A DNA stretch of 32,774 nt, taken from positions 1 through 32,774 of the forward strand of contig JAFWVB010000130.1 of assembly GCA_017518445.1 (NCBI GenBank), given 5' to 3'. The notes under the pieces are model-generated. The model ran no database searches, was not told the origin of the DNA, and saw nothing but the letters and a program-made list of their open reading frames with translations. Source of the stretch: Oscillospiraceae bacterium (GTDB lineage Bacteria; Bacillota; Clostridia; Oscillospirales; Oscillospiraceae). Of the stretch, positions 1-30,883 are shown piece after piece. Each line of letters starts with the position of its first letter. The stretch's first letter is position 1. The translations under genes and the position numbers were made by a program.

Positions 1-3000
1 ATAGCCGGAGCCGTTGGGCTGATAGAAGGTCTCATAGCTCGGAGTGCATGTGCCGTGATTGCCGTCTACATTGTAGTACACAACAACTTCATACATATCC
101 GCGATGCCGTCCGGACCATTACCGTCCGAACCGCCGCCGATGAAGTCCTCGAGCTTCCAAACAGCGTAGAGTATCTTGTCGCCGGTGAAGTCGACGGTCT
201 CGCCGTCCTGGTACTGAACAGCGCCGTTCGCGGTCTCAGACCAACCCTCAAAGACATAGCCGGTCTTAGAGAAGCCGTTTCTGGTCAGAGCTGTCGGTAC
301 GCCGATCGTGATGGTCTGCGGAGCCATGCCGCCGCCTGTCGCACCGTTGCCGTTGAAGGTCACGGTGTACTGAAGCGCCTTCCATGTCGCCTTGACCGTT
401 ACGTCCTCATCGGGCATCTCGAAGCTCTTAGCGGTTTTCCACACGAGGCTCGTGGGAGAAACCGTCGTCCAGCCCGTGAACTCATAATACTGTCTGGTCG
501 GATCTGCCAGTGTGACAGTATCGCCATACTTCGCAGTCATCGGGTTGGTTGCTGCATTGGTGCCGTTATCAAGCTCATAGTTGATAGCGTGACTATTCGC
601 TTCCCAAACCGCGTAAAGCGTGATGGTAGCGTTTGCATTTGCGATGTTGTTGACGCTCGCCTTATCGCCGTATACCACACCGCCGGTCGCACTTGTCGCC
701 CAGCCCTTGAAGGTATGACCGGGCACACTGAATCCGATTGCGGTCAACGCGGTGGCTTCGCCGCGATTGATGGTCTGATCCGCCATCGTGCCGGTCGCGG
801 CAGCGTTGTTAGCGTCAAAATGTACCTTATAGGTATCGCGAGTCCACTGCGCCGTGAGCTTGACATTGCTTGCCGGCATCGTGAAGGTGGTGGCGTTAGC
901 CGCTACGGTCAGCGTGCTCGGATCTGCTGTCCAGCCTGTCAGCGTGTAGTTTGTCTTGGTCGGGGCTTTGAAGGTGACCGTTGTGCCGGCATTCGCCTTA
1001 GTCGGGTTTGCCGGTGTTACAGTGCCGCCGGCATAGTCCCAAGTGATGTTAAACTCGTTGCCCTTCCAAACCGCGTAGAGCGTGATGGTCTCGCCTGCTC
1101 TCGCAAGGTTCGTGACAGCCTGCTCATCGGTGTAGGCCCTCGTGCCTGTAGCGGTGGTTGCCCAACCGTCGAAGGTGTGACCTGTCCTGCTGTAGCTGTT
1201 CTTCGTCAGCTTGGTAGAAACGCCGATCTCGATCTTCTGATCAGCCATCGCAGTGCCTGTACCGTTGTTGGCATTGAACTTAACGGTGTAGAAATTGTCA
1301 TTCCACTTCGCGTACACGGTCGCGCCGCCCGCGGGCATCAGATCCGCGTCTGTAAGCGCCTTGGTGCAGGCAGAATCGGTGAACCAGCCGCCGAAGGTGT
1401 AATACTGCTTCGTGGGCGCCTTGTAGTTCGAAGCGGTCAGGAACGAATTCATCTTCGCACCCGTCGCTATCTGGAACGAGGACGCGCCGCCGGACGGGAT
1501 CGTGCCGCCCTGGGTATCAAGCGTAAGGGTCTGATTTGACGCCTTCCAGTTTGCGGTCAGCGTACCTGTGCCGGGGAGGGGATCGCCCATCTTGAAATCT
1601 TCAGCCGCGGTCGAACCCGTGCGGGTGAAGGTCCACTTGTCGAACTCATAACCGTTTTTGCCTTCGGTCGTGATGTTGAAGGACGAAGTGTCTGTGCCGG
1701 GCCATACATTAGGAATAGTCTGGTCGGCGGTTATCGCGGTTCCGTTGACTTTTATCGTACCCTTGCTCGTATCGCCAACCTCAACGGTAAGCGTTCCCTT
1801 GGCGATAAAGCCGACATAGATGCGGCTGTTATGCTCTCCGCCTACATTGCCCGGGTTCGGGAGCACGATATTCTTGGTCGACGCCACTGTCTGTGTCGCA
1901 GCGTCGGTCACGACCGCGTCGGAGTCGGTCATATAACCGCTGGTTGCGTCATAAGCTATCTGCTTTGTGAAGCGCACGTCGCTCGTAGCTCCGGGCAGGG
2001 TGAACCTGACGACGTAATTGTTCGCGTTGGCAAGACCGTTGAAGGCATATTTGCCGCCGCCGGCTGTCGTCTTTGTATCAAGTAGGTTCGTGCCCTGGAG
2101 AAGCTCTACCGTGACGCCGTCGCGCGTGGTATCCGTGCCGGCGGTGTACTTGCCGTCACCGTCGACGTCGTTGAACGCGATACCGGAGATAGTCGCCATC
2201 GCAAGTCTTGCGGCGACCCAGCCGGAATCTTTATATCCGTCTCCGTCGGGAGTTTGTCTGAAAATACGGACACGGAACTCGTTCATCGCGTTGTTGAGTC
2301 TCTGGTTCTGGTCGACCTGCGCATCGGTGACGTTGACCGTCAGCGGGAGCTGGAATGTCCACTCGTCTTGTATCGGGATGTTCTTCGTCGAAACGATTCC
2401 GATCATCGTGACGGTGCTGAGGTCTGCCGGAGCCGTGGTCGAACCGGCGGTCGTCGGGACGCCGTTAGCGTCGAGCGTGACCTTGCCGGTGTAATACACG
2501 AACTGGAACGGATTCGTGGTTGCGTCGCCCACCTTGAGGGTCGGCGCTCCGGCGAGCTTCATCGGCCAGTTGTACGCCTTATACTGATAGTGGTCGTACT
2601 GAGCGTCGGAAGCGGGATCCGTGAGCGACGTGAAGACTGCGTTTGAATCGAACGTGCCGCTCGGTATCGGGATGTATGTCTTCGCGGCGTAAGTGCCGGA
2701 AGCATTTTTGAAGGTGTTTCTGATCGTTACGTTGTAGTAGACGTTTGCGCCCGGCTTGAGTGCGACGACGTTGCCGTTCGTGCCGGCGTTATGGTTGCCG
2801 ACAGGCTCGGACATTGCCGCGTCCTTCGAGAGGGTCACAAAAGCGCTGACCGTCTCTGCGTTCGAAACGAAGATATTTCTGCCATTGCTGACAAACGCGT
2901 TCATTTCGGTCGTGTCGCCGTTGCCGTTTAAATCAAAAACGTCAGGATTATTATTCGAGCTTGAATATTGGGTAGCGGCAAAGTCCGGTCTGCCCAAAAA

Positions 3001-5262
3001 TGTCAATTTGCCAAGGTCAAAGTTGCCGGTGGGATAGTTATCGTCGAAACACAAATCACCGTAAAAGTAAACTCTGGTTCTGGGCATATATCTGCCTGCG
3101 CTGTCAATAGTGGTCAGGCGTGTTTTGTCCGCCCAGAGCTTGTAAACGGTGTATTGTTCACCATTATATGTGATCGGGGTAGCCAGCGGATCTGCGTGGA
3201 CGAGCGACTGCGGGATGTCCGCGGCATTAACGCCGCCGGAGCCGTTGTCGGTCGTGGTGTAGGTCTGCCCGTCGATATTGTAGGTACAGGGGCGCTCGGT
3301 CCAAAACTTCGCGGTGACGTTTTCAAGCGATACGCCGGTAGGCAGAACTACTTGAATGACCTGTTCTTCAATTACACCTCTAAGTCCGCCGCCGAAGTTA
3401 GCCGCAAAGATCACACTTCCGCTCTCCCCCTGTGCGATGGAGGCAGGACCACCGAAGGCAAGAGCACTGTATCCAGCGCGGTTCTTTTCACCACGCAAGT
3501 AGAACTTCAGGTTGGTCGTCTTGGGTGTTGTGCTGTTAACGGGACCGACAGTGACCGTAAAGGCACTCTCGGTATTTTTGGTGGGGTCGGGGTCAACCGC
3601 GGACGCCTTGAAGTTTCCGGTGATACAGCCGCCAAGATTTCCGTTGTTAGCGGATGTAACATAGTCGGCGCTGAACTTGCCGCAGTTTGCCTCTATGCTT
3701 GTGATGTATAGGTTCTCCGAAAGGAAAGAGTTTTTATCGTGCAGAGCGCCGACATTGACATACGCATGCTGGGACGGAGCGTTGTATCCGTAATGCGTCT
3801 CCGTCGCCCATGTGGAGTAGGTGTATGTCTGGTTGTTGCTGAGCGTGACCTTGAGGTCTTTGAGCTCGCTCGTCAGTGTCGTGTCAAGCGGGAAAGTTAC
3901 GCCCTTTACCTCTACCTCGGGACCGAAGTCGAATTTTACGACCTGATCCTGGTCAACGGCGCCGTTTGCCTTAAATAAGACTGAAGCCAACACGTCGACA
4001 GTACCCCTGTCGTTTGTGGGGTTATTGCTAAGATAGCTACTGCTGTTTGTTGAATTGTTCACTGTAAGGTCGTTTGTATTCGCGCCTATTGTGGTCTTTT
4101 CATGAGTATATACGAGATAATCGGACTCTGTCAAGACGGTGCCGTCATACATCGTCGCTTGGATAGACAGACCATTATCATACTGACCTTCAGTGATGCC
4201 GTCAGCGATGTCACCGAAAATAGAGTAGTCAAATGTATTAGGTTTAGTCAACTCATAAAACTTATCGACTTCTACGGTAAAAGTATGAGTTGTGGCGTCC
4301 CAAGTCCAGTATGTGTTCGGCAGTTCTTCATTCTGGGTTCCTGTTTTTTCATTGTAGAATTTCACGGACGAAACTTTCGACACATACGGCAGGGTCAGCA
4401 CCTGCTTCATTTTTTTAACAAAGCCGGATCTCAAGTTCATGCCGTAGTAGTTTTCCGGACCGGTGTTGCGTAAAATCTTTACGTTTTTCGCGCCGGCAAC
4501 GTGAGAGCCGCCGCGAAGTTCCTTCCAACTGTTCCAGTCGCTCCATACGCCTATGGGATCTGTCTCGCGTATCGTCACATCTCCGGCGGCGCTGGTTTTC
4601 ACAGGTGTATTGCCGGAGGCGCCAACCTCATAAAGCTCTACCTTCAGGAAGTCGGTTACCTTGTCGCCGTCGTATGCGATAACTTGATGCGGCCGGATAG
4701 CGAGACGATCAGTTAAGCAGGTGGACGCTGTATTACCAGACGCGATGTGGTAGTCAAGGATACGGTAGTCGTCGCTTATATCAGCGCTCGTACCGTTATC
4801 GTCATAGTAAATGTCCATGCCGTCGATGAACTGGTCAATGCCTAACTGGTCAACATTGACCCAGTTCATGCCTTGAGTCCATGTAAACCAGCGATTCGTA
4901 TTACCGGCAGCATTTTTATAGGAATACTCAGCCGGCAGCAATTCGTCGATGTTAGTGCCGTTCCAGTTGCCGTTCGCGCGCGGCGCCATCGTGAAGATGA
5001 ACGGCTGCTTCAGCGCGATATGGATTATGTAATCCTTATTTAAATCCAGACCGGACCATGAGATGTTCAAGGCCTTGGAGCCTTGGTCATTTGAGCTGGT
5101 ATTCCAGTCGCCGCCGCTCCAGCCGCTGACGCCCACGTTGAGCTGCTCGCCCGCCGCACGCGCGTTGATCTCGAATACCGGCATGATGGACAACACCATG
5201 ACGAGCACGAGAAGCAATGCCAGCGGCTTTTTGAGCCATCGGCTTGTTTGCGTGTTTTGCAT
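1..5262 (-). CDS. Giant secreted surface protein with SdrD-B-like domain and InlB/Flg_new repeats, partial
   Basis: The minus frame is open from the ATG at 5260-5262 to the left edge (1754 codons, no stop), so the C-terminus is missing. An AAGGAG site lies about 10 bases upstream. Residues 1-36 form a signal peptide (KK, a long Leu/Val core, cleavage near ARA-A). Residues 40-1000 are a long region I do not recognise, with a DUF11-like stretch near 805-900. Residues about 1020-1150 resemble an SdrD B domain (GIAFNDVDGDG start). From about 1150 there are at least six Listeria-Bacteroides (Flg_new/InlB B) repeats, starting near 1243, 1323, 1403, 1475, 1559 and 1632, with recurring FxGW and LYAVW motifs. 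A GNGPDGIADMYEVVVYY segment near 1715 looks like the lead-in to a MucBP- or SHIRT-type domain. Such proteins are usually adhesins. The wall anchor (SLH, LPXTG or other) is outside the window. Function as an adhesin is inference. Confidence 0.9.
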   Translation of the reverse strand, partial: MQNTQTSRWLKKPLALLLVLVMVLSIMPVFEINARAAGEQLNVGVSGWSGGDWNTSSNDQGSKALNISWSGLDLNKDYIIHIALKQPFIFTMAPRANGNWNGTNIDELLPAEYSYKNAAGNTNRWFTWTQGMNWVNVDQLGIDQFIDGMDIYYDDNGTSADISDDYRILDYHIASGNTASTCLTDRLAIRPHQVIAYDGDKVTDFLKVELYEVGASGNTPVKTSAAGDVTIRETDPIGVWSDWNSWKELRGGSHVAGAKNVKILRNTGPENYYGMNLRSGFVKKMKQVLTLPYVSKVSSVKFYNEKTGTQNEELPNTYWTWDATTHTFTVEVDKFYELTKPNTFDYSIFGDIADGITEGQYDNGLSIQATMYDGTVLTESDYLVYTHEKTTIGANTNDLTVNNSTNSSSYLSNNPTNDRGTVDVLASVLFKANGAVDQDQVVKFDFGPEVEVKGVTFPLDTTLTSELKDLKVTLSNNQTYTYSTWATETHYGYNAPSQHAYVNVGALHDKNSFLSENLYITSIEANCGKFSADYVTSANNGNLGGCITGNFKASAVDPDPTKNTESAFTVTVGPVNSTTPKTTNLKFYLRGEKNRAGYSALAFGGPASIAQGESGSVIFAANFGGGLRGVIEEQVIQVVLPTGVSLENVTAKFWTERPCTYNIDGQTYTTTDNGSGGVNAADIPQSLVHADPLATPITYNGEQYTVYKLWADKTRLTTIDSAGRYMPRTRVYFYGDLCFDDNYPTGNFDLGKLTFLGRPDFAATQYSSSNNNPDVFDLNGNGDTTEMNAFVSNGRNIFVSNAETVSAFVTLSKDAAMSEPVGNHNAGTNGNVVALKPGANVYYNVTIRNTFKNASGTYAAKTYIPIPSGTFDSNAVFTSLTDPASDAQYDHYQYKAYNWPMKLAGAPTLKVGDATTNPFQFVYYTGKVTLDANGVPTTAGSTTAPADLSTVTMIGIVSTKNIPIQDEWTFQLPLTVNVTDAQVDQNQRLNNAMNEFRVRIFRQTPDGDGYKDSGWVAARLAMATISGIAFNDVDGDGKYTAGTDTTRDGVTVELLQGTNLLDTKTTAGGGKYAFNGLANANNYVVRFTLPGATSDVRFTKQIAYDATSGYMTDSDAVVTDAATQTVASTKNIVLPNPGNVGGEHNSRIYVGFIAKGTLTVEVGDTSKGTIKVNGTAITADQTIPNVWPGTDTSSFNITTEGKNGYEFDKWTFTRTGSTAAEDFKMGDPLPGTGTLTANWKASNQTLTLDTQGGTIPSGGASSFQIATGAKMNSFLTASNYKAPTKQYYTFGGWFTDSACTKALTDADLMPAGGATVYAKWNDNFYTVKFNANNGTGTAMADQKIEIGVSTKLTKNSYSRTGHTFDGWATTATGTRAYTDEQAVTNLARAGETITLYAVWKGNEFNITWDYAGGTVTPANPTKANAGTTVTFKAPTKTNYTLTGWTADPSTLTVAANATTFTMPASNVKLTAQWTRDTYKVHFDANNAAATGTMADQTINRGEATALTAIGFSVPGHTFKGWATSATGGVVYGDKASVNNIANANATITLYAVWEANSHAINYELDNGTNAATNPMTAKYGDTVTLADPTRQYYEFTGWTTVSPTSLVWKTAKSFEMPDEDVTVKATWKALQYTVTFNGNGATGGGMAPQTITIGVPTALTRNGFSKTGYVFEGWSETANGAVQYQDGETVDFTGDKILYAVWKLEDFIGGGSDGNGPDGIADMYEVVVYYNVDGNHGTCTPSYETFYQPNGSGY

Positions 5263-5400
5263 ATTTTGTTTTCTCCTTTTCGTTTTTTTGTGTTTTGCGT
5301 TTTGTCTTGCGTGTGTTTGCGTGGGTTTGTTGCGTGGTTTTGTTGCGTGTGTTGTTGCGTGTGTTGCTTGGTGCGTGGTTTTGTTGCTTGGCGCGTGTTA
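5263..5400. repeat. GT-rich low-complexity stretch upstream of the giant surface gene
   Basis: The plus strand is a run of irregular TTGCGTG / TTGTTGCGTG / TTGCTTG units. In the minus-strand mRNA this becomes a CA-rich, G-poor leader directly before the AAGGAG site and ATG at 5262. The composition predicts little secondary structure near the start codon. Several frames stay open by chance through it and give Arg/Thr/Gln-rich or Cys/Val/Leu-rich nonsense, so I call no gene here. Confidence 0.75.
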
Positions 5401-5556
5401 GGTTTTTGCCGCGCCCCCCGCGCACCTTGCGCGCGTTTGTTGCATTGGCGCGTGTCAGGTTTTGCCGCCCCCCGCGCACCTTGCGCGCGTTTGTTGCATT
5501 GGCGCGTGTGTTGCTTGGCGCGTGTTAGGTTTTTGCCGCGCGCCCCCGCGCACCTT
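5391..5556. repeat. GC-rich direct repeats, about 57 bp unit, three copies
   Basis: Copies lie at 5391-5447 (57 bp), 5448-5501 (54 bp, missing three bases) and a shorter one from 5518 to about 5556, with a 16-bp partial unit (5502-5517) between. Each begins GCGCGTGT and runs through a GGTTTTTGCCGC block and a C-run to a GCGCACCTTG block. Inside the first two copies is the palindrome CGCGCACCTTGCGCG (5419-5433, 5473-5487). A third copy of that palindrome stands alone at 5618-5632. The third unit ends by joining directly to a different palindrome family at 5556. Confidence 0.85.
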
Positions 5557-5921
5557 GTACACGTTCCGTGTATTGTGGTTTTGCCTTGTACACGTTCCGT
5601 GTATCGCGGTACACACCCGCGCACCTTGCGCGGTCTTTGCCTGTTGCGTGGTTTTGTTGCGTGTTTTTGCGATTTGTCCTTTGTTCTGTTAGTTGTCTTT
5701 GTGTTGTGCCGCGAGCGCCATGTTCACATTTCGTGTACCGGCGTTCGCCCTTGTACACATTTCGTGCACCCCCGCACGCCCCGCGAATGTTCACGCTTCG
5801 TGTACCGACGTTCACATTTCGTGTACCGCCCATACACCGGCGTTTGCGTAAGCGCCCGCCCCGGCGTGTTCACCGCGCGCGCGGTGTGTACTTTGCGTGT
5901 ACATTGTACACGCTTCGTGTA
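5556..5921. repeat. Array of seven 17-bp palindromes, consensus TGTWCACRYTYCGTGTA
   Basis: Copies start at 5556, 5587, 5721, 5752, 5788, 5809 (first base varies) and 5905. The core is a 6-base arm, a 3-base loop and a 6-base arm (TACACG / CGTGTA). Some copies carry arm changes that still pair as G-U when read as minus-strand RNA, for example arms ending AAATGTG. Spacing is irregular, which argues against CRISPR. The array lies in the probable untranslated leader of the giant surface protein. I see no convincing gene in 5263-6171. Confidence 0.85.
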
Positions 5922-6171
5922 CTCGTTCCTATTTCGCTAAATCTTTTTTTGCACCACCTGCTCTCCCCATTTGACCTCTGTCACATTCCTAAATTTTTAT
6001 CTAAATAATTAGACTATATGTGAAATCCCGACGCGCGACGCGCTTGCCGCGCCCCGGAATGTATCACCTAAAATCATGATCGCTGTGTCTGCCCGCCGCG
6101 CGGATCGCCGCGCCGCGGATCGCGAATATCGCGCTATATACATTAAATAAAATATATATCCGCTTGCCCGG
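5922..6171. other. Non-coding gap with GC-rich self-complementary stretches
   Basis: No gene is seen. The left half is AT-rich and holds the candidate promoter at 5996-6024. From about 6030 to 6135 there are GCGCG/CGATCCGCGG-type self-complementary stretches just beyond the stop of the coiled-coil gene. They could fold, but none has the T-run of a classical terminator. Confidence 0.5.
5996..6024 (-). promoter_or_regulatory. Candidate promoter for the giant surface gene
   Basis: Read on the minus strand: TTCACA (6019-6024), 17-bp spacer, GATAAA (5996-6001). It is the best sigma-A-like match between the coiled-coil gene and the surface protein gene. If used, the leader would be about 725 nt. 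The -10 match is only fair. Confidence 0.35.
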
Positions 6172-10614: not shown

Positions 10615-12117
10615 ATGTCTAAATACGTAATGGCGCTCGATCAGGGCACGACAAGCTCGCGGGCTATCATATTCGACGACACGGGCGGCATAGTCGCCGC
10701 CGCTCAAAATACGTTCCGTCAGATATACCCGCGCCCGGCGTGGGTGGAGCATGATCCGTATGATATACTCGCCTCGGAATTTGCCTCCATGCGCGATGCT
10801 CTCCAAAAGAGCGGGCTGCGCGGCTCGGATATCTCCGCGATAGGCATAACAAATCAGCGCGAAACAACGCTTGTCTGGGACAGGGAAACCGGTATGCCGG
10901 TCTATAACGCCATCGTGTGGCAGTGCCGCCGTACTGCGGATATGTGCGACACTCTCAAGGCGGCGGGGCTTGAAGAAAAGGTGCGTGAAAAAACCGGACT
11001 TCTGATAGACGCTTACTTCTCCGGCACTAAAATCAAATGGATACTCGACAATGTTTCTGGCGCGAGAGAGCGCGCGGAGGCGGGACTTCTCTCCTTCGGC
11101 ACTGTCGAGAGCTGGCTTATATGGAAGCTTACCGGCGGCAGGGCGCACATATCCGATTACTCAAACGCGAGCCGCACGATGCTGTTCAACATAAACACTC
11201 TCGAATGGGACGGAGAGCTGTGCGATATGCTGTCCGTGCCGATGTCTATGCTGCCGAAGGCCGTGCCGAATTCTATGGAATACGGCGTCGTGGCGAGCGG
11301 CATAGACGGTCTCGGGCAACTCGCCGGAGTGCCCGTCTGCGGCGCGGCAGGCGATCAGCAGGCGGCTCTGCTCGGTCAGGGGTGCATATCGAAGGGAGAG
11401 GCAAAAAACACTTACGGTACAGGCTGTTTCACTCTGATGAACACCGGAGCGGACGTACCTAAAAGCTCGTCGGGGCTTTTGACCACGGTAGCCTGGCAGA
11501 TAGGCGGCAAAACAACTTACGCGCTCGAGGGGAGCGTTTTCAACGCGGGCAGCACGATACAGTGGCTCCGCGACGGTCTCGGCATAATAAGCACCGCGCG
11601 CGAGTGCGACACTCTGGCAGAGAGCGTACCGGATAACGGCGGCGTGTACCTTGTACCCGCGTTCACGGGTCTCGGCGCGCCGTATTGGGATATGTACGCG
11701 CGCGGCACTATAACCGGACTAACGCGGGGCTCAACACGCGCGCATATATGCCGCGCCGCGCTTGAGGGCATAGCGTATCAGGTAAAGGATCTGCTCGACG
11801 CGATGGAGCGCGACGGCGTCGAGCTGTCCGTGCTTAAGGTAGACGGAGGCGCGAGCGTCAGCGACGTAATGCTTCAGTTTCAGTCCGATGTGCTGCGAAA
11901 GCCGATAGACCGTCCGAGGATAGTGGAAACCACGGCGCTCGGCGCGGCGTTTCTGGCGGGACTCGCCGCCGGAGTGTGGAGTGGAACAGACGACCTCGCG
12001 CGGCTTCGTGAGTGCGAGAGGATATTCCTCCCGCAGATGGGCTCGGCGGAGGCGATAAGCTGCTGCGACGGCTGGCGCCGCGCCGTCGGGTGCGCCGCCG
12101 GATGGACAAAGCACTAA
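10615..12117 (+). CDS. glpK: Glycerol kinase
   Basis: It phosphorylates glycerol with ATP to sn-glycerol 3-phosphate in the cytosol, feeding lipid synthesis or glycolysis. The 500-residue FGGY-family protein starts YVMALDQGTTSSRA, has NQRETT and AIVWQCRRT (substrate region), GAAGDQQAALLGQ and the C-terminal KVDGGASVSD block, all typical of GlpK. AGAGGT lies 7 bases before the ATG. It is the only plus-strand gene in the left two thirds of the window. No glycerol facilitator (glpF) or glycerol-3-phosphate dehydrogenase gene is adjacent, which fits a role in recycling internally released glycerol rather than a full uptake operon (inference). Confidence 0.97.
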   Translation: MSKYVMALDQGTTSSRAIIFDDTGGIVAAAQNTFRQIYPRPAWVEHDPYDILASEFASMRDALQKSGLRGSDISAIGITNQRETTLVWDRETGMPVYNAIVWQCRRTADMCDTLKAAGLEEKVREKTGLLIDAYFSGTKIKWILDNVSGARERAEAGLLSFGTVESWLIWKLTGGRAHISDYSNASRTMLFNINTLEWDGELCDMLSVPMSMLPKAVPNSMEYGVVASGIDGLGQLAGVPVCGAAGDQQAALLGQGCISKGEAKNTYGTGCFTLMNTGADVPKSSSGLLTTVAWQIGGKTTYALEGSVFNAGSTIQWLRDGLGIISTARECDTLAESVPDNGGVYLVPAFTGLGAPYWDMYARGTITGLTRGSTRAHICRAALEGIAYQVKDLLDAMERDGVELSVLKVDGGASVSDVMLQFQSDVLRKPIDRPRIVETTALGAAFLAGLAAGVWSGTDDLARLRECERIFLPQMGSAEAISCCDGWRRAVGCAAGWTKH

Positions 12118-12128
12118 AATATGCACAT

Positions 12129-12165
12129 AAAAAAATTCCCACGTACTTGTACGTGGGAGTTTTTT
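12129..12165. terminator. Bidirectional terminator between glpK and tRNA-Thr
   Basis: A perfect inverted repeat (12137-12146 with 12149-12158) is followed by seven T on the plus strand and preceded by seven A, which give T on the minus strand. It can end glpK and the convergent tRNA transcript. Confidence 0.85.
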
Positions 12166-12241
12166 TGGAGCTAGTGGGGTGACTTGAACACCTGACCTGC
12201 TGATTACGAATCAGCTGCTCTACCGACTGAGCTACACTAGC
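12166..12241 (-). tRNA. tRNA-Thr (anticodon CGT)
   Basis: The cloverleaf is complete: acceptor GCTAGTG/CACTAGC, D arm GCTC...GAGC, anticodon stem GCTGA/TCAGC with loop TTCGTAA, T loop TTCAAGT, discriminator T and an encoded CCA. The T stem (AGGTG/CACCC) has an A-C mismatch at its outermost pair (49-65). Confidence 0.96.
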
Positions 12242-12268
12242 GAGTGCTATATTTTTATTCGCTTGGGT

Positions 12269-12297
12269 AGTATAACACAAACTTTTCCCGCCGTCAA
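12269..12297 (-). promoter_or_regulatory. Promoter of tRNA-Thr
   Basis: Minus strand: TTGACG (12292-12297), 17 bp, TATACT (12269-12274), about 28 bases upstream of the mature tRNA 5' end. Confidence 0.8.
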
Positions 12298-12713
12298 TAA
12301 CAATAATTAAAATCGCGGAATATTACAGATAGTAATATGAAATTTTTGCCCCATGCAAAAATTTCGGACATTGAACAAAAAATATCGACGTCGAATTTCC
12401 GTCTTTTATTATTTTGTTTTCCTTTTCTTGAAAAGTGTGTAAAAAAACGGCTTTTCGGGCAGTTTTCGTCAGAGGGCTTATGGAAACCCGCGGCGATTAT
12501 CAGTTTACGTAACATTATGTCATATTTTTGTTTACTGAAAGTTATCCACATTTTCCACAGAGTTTTACACAATGCTGAAAGCACTGTAAAATAGCAGATT
12601 TTTGAGTAAATACCTATTTTTACCAAACTCTGTAACGCGATTTTTACAAGTTTTTTATTTCTGATTTAATTTACATAATTTGCGTTTTATTCACCTTTTT
12701 CACGCCATGCCCG
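12298..12713. other. AT-rich intergenic region with DnaA-box-like cluster
   Basis: No gene is supported; open frames here are short and lack ribosome sites. The perfect DnaA box TTATCCACA (12542-12550) is followed at once by TTTTCCACA (12551-12559) and then TTTTACACA (12563-12571), each one mismatch from TTATNCACA. The inverted form TGTGTAAAA is at 12436-12444. The stretch is clearly more AT-rich than the flanking genes. It could be a DnaA-binding regulatory or titration site, or an origin-like element. Confidence 0.5.
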
Positions 12714-12764
12714 AAAAAAGCCCCGAATTTGCAGGACACACATCGTTTCCTGCAAGTTCGGGGC
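12714..12764 (-). terminator. Terminator of the polA-rimI-tsaD unit
   Basis: A 17-bp stem with one mismatch (12720-12736 with 12748-12764) and an 11-base loop is followed on the minus strand by TTTTTT. It starts 9 bases after the tsaD stop. Confidence 0.92.
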
Positions 12765-12772
12765 GGGCACGG

Positions 12773-13789
12773 TCATATAATGAGCCTGTCTATATCCATC
12801 GTGGCGTATGCGTTCAAGTCGCTCTCCGCGCGTATGCCGGCGAGATATTCATAATAGCCCTGACAGCCTATCATCGCCGCGTTGTCTCCGCAAAGCCGAA
12901 GCGGTGGCACGAAAAGCCGCTTTCCCTCGCGCAAAGCCGCCGCCTCAAAATCCGCCCGTATGCGCGAATTCGCTGCGACGCCGCCCGCGACGGCGATCGT
13001 ATCATAGCCGAGAGAGCGCGCCGCGTCCATCGTGCGCGGCACGAGCGTATCGCTCACCGCCGCCGCGAATGAAGCCGCGAGCCCCTGCTTATCAAGCGTT
13101 TCGCCCTTCTGCTCCGCGTTGTGGACGATGTTCACCACAGCCGTTTTCAGACCTGAAAACGACATATCGTAAGGATGCCCGTCGATTTTGGATCTCGGCA
13201 GCTTGAACGCCGTGTCGTCGCCGCCCTGCGCGAGCCTGTCCATAGGCAAGCCGCCCGGATACGGCAGTCCGAGCACGCGCGCTGCCTTATCAAAGCACTC
13301 CCCCGCCGCGTCGTCGTGCGTCGAGCCGATAACGCTCATGTCCGTGTAGCCGCGCACGTCCACGATCACCGTGTTGCCGCCGGATATGGCGAGGCAGACA
13401 AACGGCGGCTCAAGCTCCGGAAAGGCTATGTAATTTGCCGCGATATGCCCGCGCACGTGGTGTACCGGAATGAGCGGCACATTAAGGCTCATCGCCGCGC
13501 CCTTTGCGAAATTAACACCCACCAGAAGCGCGCCGATAAGCCCCGGCGCGTAGGTCACGGCGACGGCGTCGATGTCACTCCGCTCTATCCCCGCCTTTGT
13601 GAGTGCGCTATCCGCGAGGCGGCTTATGACCGTTATGTGGTTTCTCGACGCGATCTCCGGCACTACGCCGCCGTAGAGTGCGTGCATATCATCCTGTGAG
13701 AATATCTCGTCCGCGAGCACCTCCCTGCCGTTTCGCGTCACGGCGACGGCAGTTTCGTCACAGGACGATTCTATGGACAAAATGAGCAT
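12773..13789 (-). CDS. tsaD: tRNA N6-adenosine threonylcarbamoyltransferase
   Basis: It transfers the threonylcarbamoyl group from threonylcarbamoyl-AMP to A37 of tRNAs reading ANN codons (t6A), working with TsaB and TsaE in bacteria. The 338-residue length is normal. It has the ASKHA start SIESSCDETAVAV, the metal-binding histidines H111 and H115 in VHHVRGH, the KxxGLPYPGG-type loop, and the C-terminal AVAGGVAANSRIR nucleotide-binding motif. Its ATG shares one base with the rimI stop (TAATG), indicating translational coupling. tsaB is not in the window, although rimI and tsaD often accompany it. Confidence 0.97.
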   Translation of the reverse strand: MLILSIESSCDETAVAVTRNGREVLADEIFSQDDMHALYGGVVPEIASRNHITVISRLADSALTKAGIERSDIDAVAVTYAPGLIGALLVGVNFAKGAAMSLNVPLIPVHHVRGHIAANYIAFPELEPPFVCLAISGGNTVIVDVRGYTDMSVIGSTHDDAAGECFDKAARVLGLPYPGGLPMDRLAQGGDDTAFKLPRSKIDGHPYDMSFSGLKTAVVNIVHNAEQKGETLDKQGLAASFAAAVSDTLVPRTMDAARSLGYDTIAVAGGVAANSRIRADFEAAALREGKRLFVPPLRLCGDNAAMIGCQGYYEYLAGIRAESDLNAYATMDIDRLII

Positions 13790-27961: not shown

Positions 27962-30883
27962 GTGAGGGGAGAGTTAAAAGAGACAACCGATGCGAAAGGC
28001 AATGCTGTTAAACGGCGCCCATGGGTGTTTGTTTTGACAGGGGTTGCAGCTGTTGCTATCGCTGCCGGTGTTATCATTGGCGTCGCGAACAATAATAAGC
28101 GCGCTGAGAACACGGACAGGGATATAAACACAGAAAGTCTGGAAAACGTTGAAAACACGGATCCGGATATAACCCCTGAAAATCTTTCGTACATCAATGT
28201 CGAGCGGGATGTAGTAAAGAGCTCATGGGCGGTCACAGGCATCAGCAAAGCGGACGGTTCCGGATTTGCCGAGGCAAAAGATCAGTATATCGTATTTGAC
28301 GACGCAGACGTGCGTTATTACGAGAACGGCGAGCTTGTACTGAACTGTTCCTATCGTTTTGCCGACGAGTATACCATAGAGCTTGTTAATCGTGCTGACG
28401 TCAAGGATCAAAGGTCATGGCTTTTACAGGAATTAAAGCGGGATGACGGCAGCGAGATCACGATAACCGACAGCGCCGCGGATTTGAAGTATTATATCGA
28501 GCTTGCGCCGAATTTTGAAGATCCCGAGCTGGCTAAAAGAGTGACCATGGATTATTTGGACGGCTGGTGGCAGATGACGGAGACCGGTCTCTCCGGAAGC
28601 CGTGAAGCACTGGCTGACAACTGGATGTATTTCGCAGACGGCAGGATGTATTACTACGAAAACGGCATTCAGGTCACAGACAATGCGGTAAAGCTTGATA
28701 AAAAGACGCTGGTTATGACAAACGAGCTGTTAGGCGTCACTTTGTATTGGGAAGCCAGCAAAGAAGAAAACGGAGACGTGCTTTATAGGGATTCTTCCGG
28801 AATAGAGTATTACTGCACAAGAGGAAAGGGCTACAGCAGCTTAAAGCCGGAAGGCTTCTGGGAGATGTATGCTGTCAGTGTTGTCGACGGGTCAAATTAC
28901 TCATCTCTTTCCTCCTGCTATCTTGTATTTTCGGGAGACAGCTGTAAATACTATGTCGGCGGAAAGCTCACGACCGATAACACTTTCTATTGGCTGGACG
29001 ATTGGACGATCCATATTACCACACAGGACGGAACGACGGATGAATGGGTCATTATAGACCGAGGCAGCAACCGTGCAATTATCACGGGCAAAAACCGCAT
29101 GCTGGCTTATTATGTGAAGCGCACGTCGCCGATCGACTTTGACCCGAAAATTATAGGAGATCCTGTTTCCGATGAGGAGCTGCAGGGTGCATGGAATGTG
29201 CTCTCATGGAAGCTGCTTGACGGAACCCAGTACACGGAGCCGGAGGGATGGCAGTTCGTCTTTGAAGACGGAGCGATCAAGTATTACATAAATGGCGCTC
29301 TGGTCAATACGAACTCGTATTCATTTACCGATCCTACACACATGAAGCTTAAAACCATAAGCTCATACGACGGGAAAGGCGTCGGAGACACCACCACGTG
29401 GGAGCTCAAGATCAATGACGGTATTATCACAATCAAGGATAAAAATCTGGGATTGATCTACCGGATGAGTAAAGACGATACGGATCTGGGAGAGTCTGTT
29501 GATATAACCTCCGATATGCTCCAGGGCACATGGAAGGTAGTGTCATCTGACGCGGAAGGCTTCAATTCCGATAAACATTGGGCATTTACATTTGAAGGAA
29601 ACAATGCGACATTCAAAGGTGATAATACCTATCGGTACACTTATACACTGAAAGATAATGCAATAACCGCAGATCTCACAGGATATGATTTCCAGCAGGC
29701 ATGGAAACTGGCGCTTACTGAAGAGGGGCGGTTGACGATCGCAATAGGCGGTAACTATACGTACATTTGCGAGAAGGATTCCGGGGAGGAAAAACCGGAA
29801 GAAAAAACTTCCGCAGTCACCAATGCTGAGCTTGCCGGTAAATGGACGGGAAGCATCGGCGAGACCTACACCTTCGACGGAAAGGGCGCATGCAAGGTTG
29901 ACTTCACCGCGTCTCAATACCCGACGCTCGGAACCGCGGACTACACCTACACCCTTGACGAGACGACGGGCAAGGCGGTCGCCACTTATTCCGGCGGTAC
30001 CCAGAACTGGACCTTCACGAAGTCAGATGACGGCAAGATAACCATGAAGGTAGTCGAGACAGAATACAGTACGCCTCTCACAAAGGCTGAATCGGATCCG
30101 AAGGAAACAGATGACCCGAAGGAAACGAAGGTCATCACCAATGCGGATCTGACCGGCACTTGGACGGGAAGCATCGGTGAGACTTACGCCTTCGACGGCA
30201 AGGGCGCATGCAAGGTAGATTTCACGGCGTCTCAATACCCGACGCTCGGAACCGCGGACTACACCTACACCCTTGACGAGACGACGGGCAAGGCGGTCGC
30301 CACTTATTCCGGCGGTACTCAGAACTGGACCTTCACAAAGTCCGGCGACGGCACGATAACCATGAAGGTAGTCGAGACAGAATACAGTACGGCTCTCAAA
30401 AAGGCTGATAACGATTCGACACCGCCTACGACGCCTACGACGACGGCGACGACGCGCGCTACGATAGTGACGATGCTGTACCGCCTCGCGGGCGAGCCGG
30501 CAGTGAGCGGCACATATCCGTTTACCGATGTTGAGAGCGGACAATCGTACACCAACGCCGTTATTTGGGCGGCTGAAAACGGCATAGTGACCGGTTACGG
30601 CAACAATAAATTCGGCACAAACGCCGAGGTAACGCGCGAGCAGTTAGCGGTTATCATGTACCGTTACGCGAAGTACAAGGGCTATGACGTGAGCAACGCG
30701 GCAGATCTGAGCGGCTATACGGACGCTTCCTCGATCAGCTCATGGGCGCTTGACGCTATGAAGTGGGCGTATGCCGAGGAGCTCATCACCGGGCGCACGG
30801 AGACGACTCTCGCCCCGAAGGGCAGCGCGACAAGCGCCGAAGCCGAGGAGATACTCAATCGGTTTAGCGAAAAAGTGAAGTAA
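27962..30883 (+). CDS. Membrane-anchored surface protein: seven beta-rich W repeats fused to a truncated SLH module
   Basis: A 973-residue protein starting at GTG (27962-27964) with AAAGGGGG 8 bases upstream. A basic KRR and a single helix (21-42) should anchor or export it. Next come seven related domains of about 80-100 residues, each starting with a LxGxW motif and having tyrosine-rich strands, near 85, 199, 298, 407, 520, 623 and 730. They look like lipocalin-type beta-barrels (fold inference). Domains 6 and 7 are near copies. A Thr/Pro linker (about 816-828) leads to SLH sequence: only the end of a first SLH domain (TRATIVTMLYRLAGEP), then SLH at about 853-912 and 917-973. SLH domains bind pyruvylated wall polymers. 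The lipocalin-like part is more AT-rich than the SLH part. Ligand and role are unknown. Confidence 0.88.
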   Translation: MRGELKETTDAKGNAVKRRPWVFVLTGVAAVAIAAGVIIGVANNNKRAENTDRDINTESLENVENTDPDITPENLSYINVERDVVKSSWAVTGISKADGSGFAEAKDQYIVFDDADVRYYENGELVLNCSYRFADEYTIELVNRADVKDQRSWLLQELKRDDGSEITITDSAADLKYYIELAPNFEDPELAKRVTMDYLDGWWQMTETGLSGSREALADNWMYFADGRMYYYENGIQVTDNAVKLDKKTLVMTNELLGVTLYWEASKEENGDVLYRDSSGIEYYCTRGKGYSSLKPEGFWEMYAVSVVDGSNYSSLSSCYLVFSGDSCKYYVGGKLTTDNTFYWLDDWTIHITTQDGTTDEWVIIDRGSNRAIITGKNRMLAYYVKRTSPIDFDPKIIGDPVSDEELQGAWNVLSWKLLDGTQYTEPEGWQFVFEDGAIKYYINGALVNTNSYSFTDPTHMKLKTISSYDGKGVGDTTTWELKINDGIITIKDKNLGLIYRMSKDDTDLGESVDITSDMLQGTWKVVSSDAEGFNSDKHWAFTFEGNNATFKGDNTYRYTYTLKDNAITADLTGYDFQQAWKLALTEEGRLTIAIGGNYTYICEKDSGEEKPEEKTSAVTNAELAGKWTGSIGETYTFDGKGACKVDFTASQYPTLGTADYTYTLDETTGKAVATYSGGTQNWTFTKSDDGKITMKVVETEYSTPLTKAESDPKETDDPKETKVITNADLTGTWTGSIGETYAFDGKGACKVDFTASQYPTLGTADYTYTLDETTGKAVATYSGGTQNWTFTKSGDGTITMKVVETEYSTALKKADNDSTPPTTPTTTATTRATIVTMLYRLAGEPAVSGTYPFTDVESGQSYTNAVIWAAENGIVTGYGNNKFGTNAEVTREQLAVIMYRYAKYKGYDVSNAADLSGYTDASSISSWALDAMKWAYAEELITGRTETTLAPKGSATSAEAEEILNRFSEKVK
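29843..30408 (+). repeat. Tandem in-frame duplication inside the SLH fusion gene
   Basis: Two copies of a 248-bp segment lie at 29843-30090 and 30161-30408, with a 318-bp (106-codon) period. They are nearly identical at DNA level, including synonymous positions, which indicates a recent duplication or gene conversion. Confidence 0.9.

Follow-up and report, generated by a model that had tools for sequence, protein, structure and literature searches.

The locus

The window, by which we mean the whole stretch of DNA analysed (32,774 nucleotides), is an entire contig (G000:C95) of an Oscillospiraceae assembly that comprises 1.3 Mb in 158 contigs and is 82% complete. Within it, an intergenic gap separates tsaD, the gene called gcp in B. 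subtilis, from a tRNA-Thr gene (Table 1). The tsaD product scores 405.7 bits against NCBIfam TIGR03723 (T6A_TsaD_YgjD, cut-off 296.1) and 326.6 bits against TIGR00329 (gcp_kae1, cut-off 207.8), the latter being the family that gcp and TsaD have in common. Its closest relatives in named records come mostly from Oscillospiraceae metagenome genomes, and include Sporobacter termitidis and Flavonifractor. The preliminary description stated that gene strand does not flip here; this holds for most genes on both sides, which lie on the minus strand together with tRNA-Thr and tsaD, but not for glpK to the left, which is on the plus strand.

Our box scan recovered the DnaA-box cluster as earlier described, with one perfect box, two one-mismatch boxes and an inverted box, and the gap is AT-rich as had been said. 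The core is three boxes on the plus strand, TTATCCACA-TTTTCCACA-gag-TTTTACACA (12542-12571), whose starts are separated by steps of 9 and 12 bp. From the start of box 1 to that of box 3 the distance is 21 bp, about two helical turns. Many relatives carry an inverted box between the triple and tsaD, unlike the window. Its place is therefore not kept among relatives, and we rejected it as a component of the element.

A terminator search placed a terminator-like site inside the hairpin 3′ of tsaD, which is probably a terminator, setting the cluster apart from the tsaD transcript. At the other end of the gap a promoter-like TTGACG-17-TATACT of tRNA-Thr lies at 12297-12269. The open reading frame list has two short frames within the gap, of 110 aa (minus strand) and 85 aa (plus strand), which are taken for chance. 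Three further candidates were rejected. A structured RNA was sought across 11500-13500, where the tRNA alone reached an Rfam gathering score; a phage origin was dismissed since the best 20 of 83 phage matches cover just the tRNA part of the query; and a sigma-70 promoter within the motif would have, judged by eye, an unsuitable spacing.

Table 1. Features of the tsaD to tRNA-Thr region (positions in the window)
Feature	Position	Strand	Evidence
DnaA box 1, TTATCCACA, perfect	12542..12550	+	Box scan; relatives keep place and spacing
DnaA box 2, TTTTCCACA, one mismatch, abuts box 1	12551..12559	+	Box scan; conserved
DnaA box 3, TTTTACACA, one mismatch, 3 bp past box 2	12563..12571	+	Box scan
Inverted DnaA box, TTTTACACA, one mismatch	12436..12444	-	Box scan
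TTTACGTAA, match to TTNACRTAA, start 38 bp ahead of box 1	12504..12512	+	Sequence, relatives
TTTACTGAAAG, abuts box 1, related to the TTTACAnAnAG block of relatives	12531..12541	+	Sequence, relatives
Gap bearing the element, tsaD to tRNA-Thr, 531 bp, 64% AT	12242..12772	.	
tsaD (gcp in B. subtilis), neighbour linked to the cluster	12773..13789	-	NCBIfam
Hairpin and T-tail 3′ of tsaD	12700..12772	-	Fold -43.5 kcal/mol, z -6.3
tRNA-Thr (CGT), next gene	12166..12241	-	tRNA call

Clustering in shuffled sequence

The window has 22 boxes with at most one mismatch where 14.8 are expected, a number reached in 4 of 100 shuffles. It is the clustering, not the number of one-mismatch boxes, that is unusual. 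Using the pattern TTWTNCACA, the gap contains 4 boxes against a mean of 0.13 over 3000 dinucleotide shuffles of the gap, none of which had four boxes anywhere in it. Two boxes fell inside a 40-bp span of starts in 3 of these 3000 shuffles, and three boxes in such a span (49 bp in total) in none. Over the whole window there are 6 matches (mean 1.05 in 200 shuffles, none with two boxes within 40 bp). Across the assembly, at its 82% completeness, a TTWTNCACA pair 0-3 bp apart occurs solely here, as two overlapping matches; the reversed-pattern control for a close tandem pair gave 0.

Conservation downstream of tsaD

Our cluster test requires at least two TTWTNCACA boxes starting within 40 bp of each other, 0-600 bp 3′ of tsaD. 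The same test was applied to a control zone 500-1100 bp 3′ of tsaD, and loci with fewer than 450 bp after tsaD were dropped (3 of 80 related loci and 1 of 50 class loci). Among related loci, all from one tsaD scan (L032-L111), the cluster is present in 32 of 77 and absent by this test from 45; the control zone was positive in 0 of 73, and 0 of 1540 shuffles were positive. The conservation check proposed at the outset thus came out in favour of the cluster. Another set of relatives (L003-L031), in which 9 of 28 loci are positive, has genomes in common with the first, and L202-L211 (3 of 10 positive) are relatives again; both were kept out of the counts.

Class families were represented by one genome each, own family and order included, taking the first genome listed for each of 50 families among the matches listed. 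Here 9 of 49 families have the cluster and 40 fail the test (control zone 1 of 48; shuffles 0 of 980). For the other classes of the phylum, 40 loci, one genome per family, were hand-picked from a longer family list before any box search there, and are not strictly a random sample; 18 have the cluster and 22 fail the test (control zone 0 of 39; shuffles 0 of 2000). The 3′ regions of a control gene, recA, had no cluster in 20 of 20 other-class genomes, 18 of which are positive at tsaD. Clusters in 18/40 and 9/49 families suggest a control site that predates the split of these classes. By eye, a tandem pair lies at most 600 bp from tsaD in at least eight genomes (G074, G095, G101, G153, G204, G247, G249 and G268). 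The type strain of Sporobacter termitidis (L063) has a degenerate version only, which fails the test.

Boxes are mostly oriented against tsaD: 87 versus 18 in related loci, 41 versus 5 in the class set and 74 versus 7 in the other classes. Place, spacing and order in related loci are mostly as in the window, and same-strand spacings of 9 bp (17 pairs), 12 bp (13) and 21 bp (26) dominate. The class set has 9 bp three times, 12 bp four times, 21 bp four times, and 42 and 51 bp three times each. Among other-class loci the prominent spacings are 9 bp (13) and 21 bp (5), and 12 bp is rare (1). There, a TTATNAACA word stands 3 bp ahead of the first box in 7 of 15 modules (L259, L264, L270, L271, L272, L273 and L276), making a 12-then-9 triple where the window order is 9-then-12. 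The column statistics cover 33 anchored modules, with loci lacking a module excluded.

Some relatives carry tandem modules elsewhere in the genome. In L112-L131, triple DnaA-box modules of the same spacing were seen at varied other places in relatives, and in three of these loci (L114, L119 and L128) a TTATGTNAA word, the reverse of the tsaD-3′ motif, stands 3-4 bp after box 3.

Proposed role

In B. subtilis, the region listed as 'downstream of gcp; downstream of ydiF' is region 4 in the Table 1 of in vitro DnaA binding in the available part of PMC4447404. It has 10 sites and an apparent Kd of 0.15 µM for ATP-DnaA and 0.33 µM for ADP-DnaA, and is one of eight high-affinity DnaA regions in that organism. 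A B. subtilis strain from which six extra-origin clusters are missing starts replication early (PMC5295017, available part, citing Okumura et al. 2012), although the size of the effect of such clusters is debated. E. coli DnaA in vivo prefers box pairs 2-3 bp apart (PMC11317965, available part). Because of the pair preference, the binding at gcp/ydiF and the behaviour of the cluster-deletion strain, we read the element as a DnaA-box cluster outside the origin that corresponds in Oscillospiraceae to the B. subtilis gcp/ydiF site, is retained 3′ of tsaD in a fair share of the phylum, and is predicted to bind DnaA and to restrain initiation. We give this reading a probability of about 0.7. The site probably serves as a conserved docking place for DnaA with a part in timing chromosome copying, and not as a second origin. 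The preliminary description had offered a DnaA titration or regulatory site as one possibility, and this part gains support from the conservation 3′ of tsaD and from the B. subtilis cluster in the corresponding position.

The mechanism that we infer has DnaA binding, cooperativity and an effect on initiation timing. Three boxes facing the same way, at steps of 9 and 12 bp, would allow a small DnaA complex to assemble cooperatively in the gap between the tsaD terminator and the next promoter. The cluster would hold DnaA, and twice as much after the locus has been replicated, lowering free DnaA; the lowered level would help to restrain new initiation.

Like the B. subtilis site, the cluster lies 3′ of tsaD (gcp), is intergenic, has several DnaA boxes clustered together and is away from dnaA and outside oriC. 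The likeness is to a published description, and there are differences. The B. subtilis cluster counts 10 predicted sites over 300 bp and its neighbour is convergent, whereas here there is a three-box core with one inverted box, followed by tRNA-Thr and accompanied by an Oscillospiraceae-type TTNACRTAA. The B. subtilis gcp/ydiF cluster is presumably one of the six clusters of Okumura et al. 2012. The E. coli double DnaA boxes share the 3-bp gap seen between boxes 2 and 3, but here a further box abuts at a spacing of 0 bp (PMC11317965, available part).

The B. subtilis gcp site is already known, as one of several DnaA-binding sites there. A literature search, over a collection with few subscription papers, found no report of DnaA-box cluster conservation at tsaD. 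The tsaD-3′ cluster is a defined element for deletion or assay, and bears on whether retaining DnaA at particular chromosomal positions has any importance for initiation in bacteria other than E. coli. Its repeated 9/12/21-bp geometry and extra motif lead to testable predictions on DnaA assembly away from the origin.

Neighbouring genes

While tsaD is the constant partner because loci were chosen by tsaD, the gene after the cluster varies. tRNA-Thr follows in the window and within 0.5-0.9 kb in L015, L016, L018, L027 and L202; other tRNAs that follow are tRNA-Val (L051), tRNA-Ala (L070) and tRNA-Gln (L105), and many relatives have radC-uvrB. In other families the next gene encodes a CBS-domain protein (L158, L165), Lgt (L258 and others), a radical-SAM protein (L264 and others) or MurC (L289). 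Thus no single promoter accounts for the cluster. Names for TsaD, GlpK, DnaA, DnaN, RadC, UvrB, CBS, Rex, Lgt and radical SAM were checked by domain search, with one example per protein gene for the neighbours (L036 for radC and uvrB, L158, L258, L264, L289); the MurC fragment scored below its cut-off, and the remaining neighbour names were given by eye. The rex locus (L191), whose boxes are 42 bp from each other, does not pass the cluster test and was not counted as positive.

Bound DnaA could instead regulate the neighbour, tRNA-Thr here and radC-uvrB in relatives, and so couple repair or translation genes to the replication state. Room for this is left by an association in related loci: of 30 positives with at least 2 kb of sequence, 26 have radC/uvrB downstream, compared with 9 of 38 negatives, counts that are uncorrected for kinship; the association may reflect kinship or function, the latter being DnaA control of repair genes. 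E. coli uvrB is under DnaA control, according to the available part of PMC6015884. Yet the cluster is present without radC/uvrB in the window and in L045, L051, L060 and L105, and the next genes differ among other-class positives. In 59 of the 60 loci L152-L211 no radC/uvrB match occurs in the downstream sequence of up to 1.3 kb (L188 was too short). The uvrB gene of our own assembly is on contig C57, where there are merely two TTWTNCACA boxes, 4.2 kb apart. The promoter-like site of tRNA-Thr is 139 bp from the nearest box, with which it neither overlaps nor abuts, and the next gene changes from locus to locus. In B. subtilis the two genes that flank the cluster both have their ends there (PMC4447404, available part). 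A radC/uvrB promoter was accordingly rejected as a general explanation, as clusters persist where those genes are missing, and we consider control of the neighbour unlikely.

The TTNACRTAA motif

Ahead of box 1, two further blocks are conserved in Oscillospiraceae modules: TTNACRTAA, at a distance of about 38 bp, and TTTACAnAnAG, directly next to the box. Of 34 modules, 26 have the former 20-46 bp ahead of box 1, as do 6 of the 11 in another set that overlaps with these. The same 34 modules have it further upstream (-160 to -46) in 3 cases and on the other strand (-160 to -20) in 5. Away from tsaD, it was found within 75 bp of 7 of 16 modules (a stricter module, found in 16 of 20 loci) against 16 of 245 background windows of at least 50% AT; two of the seven, L120 and L122, have it at the limit of that distance. 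Ahead of modules it was found in 0 of 6 of the class-wide set and 0 of 15 from other classes, and none of 24 dnaA loci had it within 75 bp of a box. These three counts led us to reject it as a general partner of DnaA boxes. It could be the site of another, accessory protein, or a degenerate DnaA site.

One alternative is a locus controlling the nucleotide state of DnaA, of the type of E. coli datA and DARS, in which the three-box core and an accessory site would catalyse ATP hydrolysis or nucleotide exchange on DnaA. Like datA, DARS1 and DARS2, which act on DnaA, the element is a non-coding multi-box locus away from oriC; its compact three-box core with recurring spacing fits such a type, as does a second motif in Oscillospiraceae. 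But the place is not shared with any of the three and no homology was seen. datA has been described for E. coli, where it has a site for an accessory protein (IHF), and the available part of PMC5295017 reports no B. subtilis counterpart. TTNACRTAA does not, moreover, stand ahead of the class-wide and other-class modules, and we hold a locus of this type to be quite improbable.

A broader reading joins a DnaA control locus 3′ of tsaD, dating from an early ancestor within the phylum, to an Oscillospiraceae composite in which a TTNACRTAA-binding protein would aid DnaA assembly. We regard it as doubtful. If true, the composite tsaD-3′ element would be a functional analogue, in Oscillospiraceae, of datA/DARS with an accessory-protein site.

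Replication origin and chance as alternatives

That the cluster might be part of a replication origin, whether main, secondary or relic, was another possibility raised by the preliminary description, which itself leaned against the main origin. A box cluster in AT-rich DNA is what such an idea has in its favour, and in this the gap resembles the bipartite clostridial oriC (PMC7561715, available part). That oriC, in contrast, flanks dnaA and has an unwinding element and a DnaA-trio, neither of which was recognised here. Past box 3 conservation extends to a short T run only, with no trio-like repeat seen by eye. As stated earlier, dnaA and dnaN are outside the window; they follow one another on contig C138, where the dnaA locus has two TTWTNCACA boxes.

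Because our assembly is too broken, being in 158 contigs, GC skew was evaluated in a relative, G031, which has a three-box element 3′ of tsaD (L015). Over 380 kb of one of its contigs, skew is below zero in 36 of 38 bins of 10 kb, with no switch at the element, 234 kb along; on the dnaA contig of G031 the skew changes from negative to positive at dnaA. The GC-skew check that had been suggested therefore speaks against an origin at the element, at least in this relative. None of 24 dnaA loci of the family has the close tandem box arrangement, and spacings of 9, 12, 21 and 42 bp were not found among them. With dnaA elsewhere, skew steady at the G031 element and no family dnaA locus sharing the arrangement, the main origin was rejected, and the idea of an origin part of any kind was abandoned as very improbable.

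Against the initiation-restraining cluster that we prefer stand the many loci that fail the cluster test and a variable distance to dnaA. This distance is approximately 0.29 Mb in G393, 0.35 Mb in G389, 0.4 Mb in G249 and 0.91 Mb in G084, all single-contig genomes (two sizes are rounded), and in G101 the cluster is about half a chromosome from dnaA. A fixed distance from the origin is thus not seen, which is poor for a timing sink.

A chance grouping of A+T-rich words is next to inconceivable: one-mismatch boxes are common in the window, but no gap shuffle reproduced the triple, and its spacing and place recur over families and classes.

Other observations

The DNA-contact motif of the DnaA protein of our own assembly (L001) is RDHATV, as against DHT or DHS in 23 others; no reading was obtained for L227, L243, L246 and L249, and the match in L151 was false. 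We take the differing residue to be a DNA contact, as in E. coli. The DHA in this protein might alter the affinity for, or recognition of, boxes.

Elsewhere in the window, 5001-6000 has a very strong AT skew (-0.48), and its overlapping frames, which occur on either strand, consist of repeating peptide units; it looks like a low-complexity repeat stretch. Two large repeat-bearing frames, at 1-5262 and 27962-30883, resemble surface proteins by eye; one is cut by the contig end, and the other has a C-terminal part like S-layer homology domains.
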